Below, piece by piece: positions 35,525-36,117 of a stretch of 64,000 nucleotides of DNA. The DNA comes from Picochlorum sp. 'celeri' (Eukaryota > Chlorophyta > Trebouxiophyceae): positions 496,001-560,000 of the forward strand of contig JAACMV010000020.1 of NCBI GenBank assembly GCA_010909725.1, written 5' to 3'. The number at the start of each line of letters is the position of its first letter. Within the stretch, counting starts at the first letter, position 1. The notes beneath the pieces were generated by a model. The model made no database searches. It saw only the letters and a list, made by a program, of their open reading frames with translations, and was not told where the DNA came from. The position numbers were made by a program, and so were the translations under genes.

Positions 35525-35766
35525 TTCTACTAGAAATTCCAGTCATCGTGTTACTCTTTTTGCATCATGCGTGTAAAACAAACATCAGAAAAACGGTATT
35601 ACTACTACATCCCACACATTCATCATCATTATACAAAAGGGGTATTTGACCCCATGGTATGCTTTCTACAGACAGACAGCTTGCAACATGAAAAGAAATC
35701 GGTACCGGCACTTCCTTGCGAAGACAAAACTACTATACCCGGAGAAAGAGGTCAAAAGAATAAGAA
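35525..35766. other. 3' flank of the secreted-protein gene
   Basis: No coding sequence is supported. Short open frames here are low-complexity or are translations running into the tRNA gene. Confidence 0.4.
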
Positions 35767-35882
35767 TAGAAGTCATATGCGCTATCCAATTGCGCCACCG
35801 AGGCAAGCACGCTGTAACACGTACGACATGGCAGAAGTATTTTCGCCACCTCGGACGGGGGTCGAACCCGCAACCTTATGAT
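35767..35882 (-). tRNA. Permuted tRNA-Arg(UCU): 3' half precedes 5' half
   Basis: On the minus strand the 3' half (35882-35847, bases 38-73) comes first, then a 42-nt spacer (35846-35805), then the 5' half (35804-35767, bases 1-37). Joined in the order 5' half then 3' half they form a full cloverleaf: acceptor GCCTCGG/CCGAGGT (7 pairs, one G-U), D stem GCGC/GCGC with loop AATTGGATA, anticodon stem TATGA/TCATA (5 pairs), loop CTTCTAA with anticodon TCT, five-base variable loop AGGTT, T stem GCGGG/CCCGT with loop TTCGACC, discriminator G. The A box (TGGCGCAATTGG) and B box (GGTTCGACCCC) are both consensus but in reversed order. CCA is not encoded. The cut sites fall at 37/38, and C32 can pair with the G three bases before the 3'-half cut, the A-I pair used by the splicing endonuclease. 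Confidence 0.9.
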
Positions 35883-36117
35883 GTCTACAATAAATTGTTT
35901 ACAAAATCGAATTTCCGTCGGAATAAAAACAGATCAATCTTCTCACCCGGTCCTCAGACCTCCTTTTACTGTCCTCTTTCGTGTAGATAGGACAATACCA
36001 TGATGCATACACATCCCGGGTTGATGTCTGCAGGCGATACAGTCCTGATACCACACAAATGTTCGCAAACCCACCCACAACGTGGTCCCAGCACTGCCCA
36101 CCTGTGCAGCAGATGCT

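Follow-up and report, generated by a model that had tools for sequence, protein, structure and literature searches.

A circularly permuted tRNA-Arg(UCU) gene in Picochlorum sp. 'celeri' and further permuted tRNA types in its genome

The tRNA-Arg(UCU) locus

The locus lies on the minus strand of the window, by which we mean the whole stretch of 64,000 nucleotides that was analysed (C20:496001-560000, from a genome of 27,412,692 bases in 30 contigs) and which has a G+C content of 45-50% in 4-kb bins. Read from 35882 to 35767, it consists of a 3' half of 36 nt, a spacer of 42 nt and a 5' half of 38 nt of tRNA-Arg(UCU) (Table 1), i.e., the 3' half stands upstream of the 5' half on one strand with a spacer between them, which is the arrangement of a type II permuted tRNA gene. 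All four stems close after the exchange of the halves, as stated in the original prediction, which was made from the sequence alone: the scans gave 7/7 pairs in the acceptor stem (six Watson-Crick pairs and G1-U72) and 5/5 pairs in both the T stem and the anticodon stem, and a D stem of 4/4 pairs (GCGC/GCGC) was read by eye. The A box and the B box, which had been predicted to be consensus RNA polymerase III boxes, fit what we take to be the consensus and occur in inverted order.

Table 1. Features of the permuted tRNA-Arg(UCU) locus, with positions in the window.
Feature	Positions	Strand	Basis
3' half of tRNA-Arg(UCU), N38 to discriminator G73, with T arm and 3' strand of the acceptor stem	35847..35882	-	scans, sequence letters
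Intervening spacer, 42 nt, without a run of four T	35805..35846	-	scans, sequence letters
5' half of tRNA-Arg(UCU), G1 to A37, with D arm and anticodon	35767..35804	-	scans, sequence letters
Anticodon TCT	35768..35770	-	ARAGORN on the rejoined halves, sequence letters
B box GGTTCGACCCC, upstream of the A box	35858..35868	-	sequence letters; identical B box on the C5 allele
A box TGGCGCAATTGG	35786..35797	-	sequence letters; fit to consensus read by eye
Leader GTAGAC: GTAG (-6..-3) opposite CTTC (32-35), bulge-helix-bulge helix; AC in the 3' bulge	35883..35888	-	
AAATTC, candidate external promoter element, -32 from N38	35909..35914	-	RAATTC at -50..-30 in 8/13 permuted genes, motif chosen by eye
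TTTT, likely RNA polymerase III terminator past the 5' half	35754..35757	-	T4+ in 13/13 trailers, 0/13 spacers

After the halves of 35767-35882 were rejoined, ARAGORN recognised a complete tRNA, Arg(tct), and it made no call on the locus in genomic order. No tRNA was called anywhere in the 64-kb window by ARAGORN or by Rfam at its gathering threshold; in the original prediction, no linear tRNA-Arg(UCU) had been seen there. A scan for permuted structures, which required a T arm of 5/5, an acceptor stem of 7/7, an A box and an anticodon stem of 5/5, found one match in the window as opposed to none in 300 dinucleotide shuffles of it; when the anticodon stem was not required, two matches were obtained in the 300 shuffled windows. 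The covariance model R1, in whose training alignment the spacers were cut to 8 nt, matches the locus with 64.5 bits, a score that is not independent, as the gene is part of the training set.

The published phased assembly of Picochlorum celeri is described as 27.43 Mb in two sets of 15 scaffolds, with a G+C content of 46% and 0.8% SNP heterozygosity (PMC7225527). One protein encoded in the window, identified through its relatives as an acyl-CoA synthetase, has its highest-ranking named relatives in Micractinium, Parachlorella and Chlorella, i.e., among Chlorellaceae. The Arg(UCU) locus is found on both haplotypes, on contigs C20 and C5. From the 3' half through the spacer and the 5' half to nucleotide 40 of the trailer, the two alleles are identical; they differ at two positions in the 60-nt leader and at more in the outer flanks. 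A check for any other tRNA-Arg(UCU), as suggested in the original prediction, was made by comparing the rejoined mature sequence with the genome; all four matches correspond to the halves of this gene, two on each haplotype, in a search that would miss a diverged linear gene. With respect to close copies, the locus shows the usual type II trait that no linear gene exists for the same tRNA. A gapped pattern for linear genes, TTCTA followed by a B box, occurred at 21 places, of which a single pair, the Gly locus on C4/C30, was identified as a tRNA by the scanner; this gene is itself permuted. The linear gene L106, which ARAGORN called as Arg(tct) with an intron, was rejected as a candidate, as its stem, CCAGT/ACTGG with TTCAAG between the strands, together with a long variable arm identifies it in our own reading as Leu(CAA). 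The inventory of linear tRNAs is incomplete, and the ARAGORN calls for intron-containing genes often differ from the loop read by eye.

Permuted tRNA types and their junction

The search of the assembly for permuted tRNA genes, also suggested in the original prediction, was carried out in part, using the three B-box patterns GGTTCGANNCC, GGTTCAANNCC and GAGTTCRANNCTC, and all counts of types are lower bounds. The pattern GGTTCGANNCC occurred at 138 places, of which 66 + 5 were examined, GGTTCAANNCC at 195 places, of which 89 were examined via 88 regions and a few others were already covered, and GAGTTCRANNCTC at 34 places, of which 15 + 2 were examined; most of the places listed but unexamined lie on the presumed second haplotype. 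These scans revealed permuted genes for Arg(UCU), Arg(UCG), Leu(AAG), Leu(CAG), Leu(UAA), Gly(GCC), Ala(UGC), Ala(CGC), Cys(GCA), Ser(GCU), Ser(AGA), Thr(CGU) and Thr(AGU), i.e., at least 13 permuted tRNA types, every one of them split at 37/38, which is more than the 11 genes of Cyanidioschyzon merolae, the largest number in the 2014 table. ARAGORN called the rejoined halves of all 13 as tRNAs with the expected anticodon; its one call among ten permuted genes in genomic order was a spurious tRNA-Cys at the Gly locus. The spacers of the 13 genes are 11 to 128 nt long, and the range given in Table 1 of Soma 2014 is 1 to 74. The permuted order was kept at all nine loci (8 types) that were compared on the second haplotype, including AlaCGC with its altered D arm, and the remaining 5 of the 13 types were seen on one haplotype only.

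Some of these loci have peculiarities of their own. Permuted Arg(UCG) genes are located at two places on contig C8, L067 near 59353 and L069 near 537665, with alleles on C17 (L213 and L214), and their spacer of 128 nt, which exceeds the maximum of 74 in the 2014 table, appears by eye to be rich in inverted repeats. The two alleles of the permuted tRNA-Ala(CGC), L077 and L216 (C10, C16), differ at 8 sites in the halves, mainly in the D arm, as opposed to none in the other 8 allele pairs. L122 (C2 near 956236) has a T arm and an acceptor-like 3' end, and its partner was not found in the scan; ARAGORN, when allowed introns, names it tRNA-Phe(gaa), which is unlikely because a Phe(GAA) exists elsewhere and the arm resembles the 3' half of a Ser tRNA. 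L159 was dropped as a permuted tRNA, with a T stem of 4/5, C at position 8 and no ARAGORN call on the rejoined halves.

For the junction, the original prediction had proposed a bulge-helix-bulge (BHB) motif at the cuts, with a helix between CTTC and GTAG and a pair between C32 and G(-3). C32 does face G(-3), but the central helix pairs at only 3/4 positions, with a U34-U(-5) mismatch. In the BHB model, positions 32-35 pair with leader positions -3 to -6, which gives four cells in each of 13 genes, or 52 cells in total, and the halves of three genes were positioned by hand ahead of the count. In the predicted register, 42 of the 52 cells of this central helix (helix H) are paired, compared with a mean of 29.7 when the leaders were reassigned among the genes, where 42 was reached in none of 50,000 shuffles; seven slid registers gave 17-26 paired cells. 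The anticodon-intron pair 32/-3 is formed in 12 of the 13 genes (C-G, T-A and one G-T), as opposed to 4-9 of 13 at ten other positions and a shuffled mean of 7.8 (P 0.00042, 50,000 shuffles). Because paralogues are not independent, a reduced gene set was also used for the junction statistics, in which one gene of each isoacceptor pair (LeuCAG, AlaCGC, ThrAGT) was dropped; helix H then pairs in 32/40 cells (P 6e-05) and 32/-3 in 9/10 genes (P 0.002). SerGCT is an exception, with 1/4 pairs in helix H and no anticodon-intron pair.

The fold of the single Arg(UCU) sequence does not support the BHB register and prefers another one, in which UAGA of the leader pairs with positions 34-37, and the free fold is not clearly more stable than that of shuffled sequences (z -1.03; 29 of 200 shuffles are equally stable or more so). 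This other register fills 4/4 cells in Arg(UCU), but only 22/52 over the 13 genes. As the Arg(UCU) fold alone prefers another register and is unremarkable against shuffles, the support for the BHB is comparative: the 37/38 junction lies, as in type II genes, within a BHB-like motif, which is not visible in the single-sequence fold.

Transcription and proposed maturation

A run of at least four T is present at +4 to +36 past the 5' half in all 13 genes and in none of the 13 spacers, and the Arg(UCU) locus has the type II configuration of a spacer without terminator and a T run after the 5' half. Upstream of N38, the motif RAATTC starts at a distance of 30-50 nt in 8 of the 13 permuted genes, compared with 1.5% expected per gene, and is absent at -50 to -30 in 5; since the motif was picked visually from the data on which it was then scored, its P value is optimistic. 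Among 24 rows of linear genes, 7 have RAATTC at -50 to -22 and 17 are without it; these rows count L181 twice and include two Phe alleles, but not L212, which repeats L017. Since the B box precedes the A box here, an upstream signal for the transcription of Arg(UCU) is plausible, by analogy with the external upstream signal that has been argued for the permuted genes of C. merolae (Soma 2014, section 5). TFIIIC may still act on the permuted genes, since a TFIIIC B-block domain is encoded in the genome (30.8 bits); in C. merolae, homologues of TFC1/TFC3 were not identified (Soma 2014). Among the linear genes, the sequence GGTCCCGGGTTCAAA, which resembles a T arm with B box, directly precedes the first base of tRNA-Phe (L098/L099 alleles) and of tRNA-Asn (L005); it may be what is left of tandem tRNA halves, or else an external B box.

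For the maturation of the transcript, a pathway has been proposed from other algae in which endonuclease cleavage and circularisation by ligation are followed by the action of RNase P and tRNase Z and the addition of CCA (Soma 2014, section 6), and by analogy we infer transcription, a circle and a ligase for Arg(UCU). RNA polymerase III would start upstream of the gene, probably guided by the AT-rich element, and would produce a transcript composed of leader, 3' half, spacer, 5' half and trailer that ends at the TTTT. Leader and trailer would meet in the bulge-helix-bulge at 37/38, both strands of which would be cut by the splicing endonuclease, and a ligase, perhaps RtcB or one of plant type, would join A37 to A38, resulting in a circle that retains the spacer. 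The spacer would next be cut away from the acceptor stem by RNase P and tRNase Z, before CCA is added. The genome encodes PF01974 splicing-endonuclease domains of two kinds at 9 places, and RtcB domains at two places, on C7 and C24. A PF01974 domain with equal score is found on seven contigs, C9, C12, C26 (1564-1779), C10, C16, C21 and C25, three of which share the coordinate, and looks like part of a multi-copy segment.

The Arg(UCU) gene is a real permuted tRNA gene and belongs to a known kind; the structure, the presence of both alleles, the absence of a close linear copy and the 12 further permuted types with covarying junctions bear out the original prediction that tRNA-Arg(UCU) is permuted, with its junction at 37/38. 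We consider it very probable that 35767-35882 is a functional, circularly permuted nuclear gene, whose RNA would mature through a circular precursor.

Alternative explanations, known systems and relatedness of the permuted genes

The anatomy of the locus is also what would be expected from a duplicated intron-bearing tRNA gene without its outer halves (Soma 2014, section 10), and the locus could in principle be a disused pseudogene left by tandem duplication. We regard such a relic as very unlikely: no close linear replacement for Arg(UCU) was found, the AGA codon is in use (106 of the 7328 codons in 11 ORFs picked by hand from 21 listed), and the junction pairing is preserved across the permuted genes. 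Moreover, the halves of 8 allele pairs carry 0 substitutions in 595 sites, as opposed to 18 in 2015 in spacers and flanks (Fisher P 0.02), a count in which gaps were not considered and the AlaCGC pair was left out; with AlaCGC included, the halves carry 8 substitutions in 667 sites.

Swapping of the halves by an assembly error, which the original prediction had named as an objection, or by a phasing artefact has to be considered in an assembly that was polished by long reads only (PMC7225527), yet the order is identical on C20 and C5, 8 other loci are permuted on both haplotypes, and 13 types share one architecture together with a covarying junction, which leaves an artefact with hardly any probability. 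The unremarkable free fold of the single Arg(UCU) RNA would be in line with a chance cloverleaf formed by unrelated tRNA-like pieces, but the full structure was found in none of the 300 shuffled windows and the rejoined halves give a full tRNA, which makes coincidence extremely improbable.

Permuted tRNA genes were known from Cyanidioschyzon and prasinophytes, as the original prediction stated: Soma 2014 covers 34 such genes in six algae and one archaeon, among them C. merolae and Ostreococcus tauri. The tRNA-Arg(TCT) of O. tauri is a type II (37/38) permuted gene (Soma 2014, Table 1) which shares with the Picochlorum gene the anticodon, the junction position, the order of the halves, the BHB-type junction and the lack of an intron; it differs in its spacer of 11 bp, compared with 42 nt here, and in its prasinophyte instead of trebouxiophyte host. 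C. merolae has 11 permuted tRNA genes of types I-IV, for which the circular intermediate has been shown (Soma 2014). Inverted halves, a T-run terminator and a spacer without terminator are common to C. merolae and Picochlorum, as is an upstream element, a TATA-like signal in the former and an AT-rich candidate in the latter; the two differ in that all 13 Picochlorum types are split at 37/38, while C. merolae has types I-IV.

In the trebouxiophyte Auxenochlorella UTEX 250-A, nuclear permuted tRNA genes were reported in 2025, after the tRNAscan-SE set had proved incomplete (PMC12636532). Picochlorum resembles this alga in being a trebouxiophyte with nuclear permuted tRNA genes, and the statement in the original prediction that no report was known for this lineage was too wide, since both belong to the class Trebouxiophyceae. 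For the genus Picochlorum itself, no earlier report was found in the literature searched, outside of which most subscription papers lay; the accessible text of the Picochlorum SENEW3 genome paper describes the use of tRNAscan-SE and mentions only tRNA-Sec. Permuted tRNA genes easily escape ordinary annotation, and Arg(UCU) was missed by both ARAGORN and Rfam. With 13 types in a phased diploid alga, the origin of permuted genes becomes testable, as do the reading of inverted internal boxes by RNA polymerase III and a possible role of the circular precursor. Since P. celeri appears to be genetically tractable, as far as the Cas9 papers indicate, deletion or linearisation of one permuted gene could be attempted.

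The isoacceptor pairs provide information on the relatedness of the permuted genes. Leu(AAG) and Leu(CAG) are identical at 42/42 positions of the 3' half and 34/37 of the 5' half, and their spacers align with a local score of 31 that was reached in none of 2000 shuffles; leader and trailer are not shared. The spacers of Thr(CGU) and Thr(AGU) are similar with P 0.0005, while Ala(UGC) and Ala(CGC) share the trailer (0/2000 shuffles) and, weakly, the spacer (P 0.03). The shared spacers of the Leu and Thr pairs indicate duplication after permutation, followed by a change of the anticodon, at least for the Leu gene and probably for the Thr gene. Among 78 spacer pairs, four beat all 400 shuffles, two of them across amino acids (ArgTCT-GlyGCC and ArgTCT-ThrCGT), and no support was obtained for a shared ancestry of the spacers of Arg(UCU) and Arg(UCG) (P 0.43). 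For the genome as a whole, we lean slightly towards the view that a substantial fraction of the nuclear tRNAs of Picochlorum passes through circular precursors and that its permuted genes multiply as units, with the anticodon changing after permutation. If this is true, permutation would be a gene architecture that is stable, expands and is driven by a promoter outside the gene. At the start of the Arg(UCU) spacer, the sequence GCGAAAAT (35835-35846) resembles GCGAAAATTTTTT, the 3' trailer of L017, a linear tRNA-Lys(UUU) gene, and may be what remains of a terminator in a tandem ancestor.
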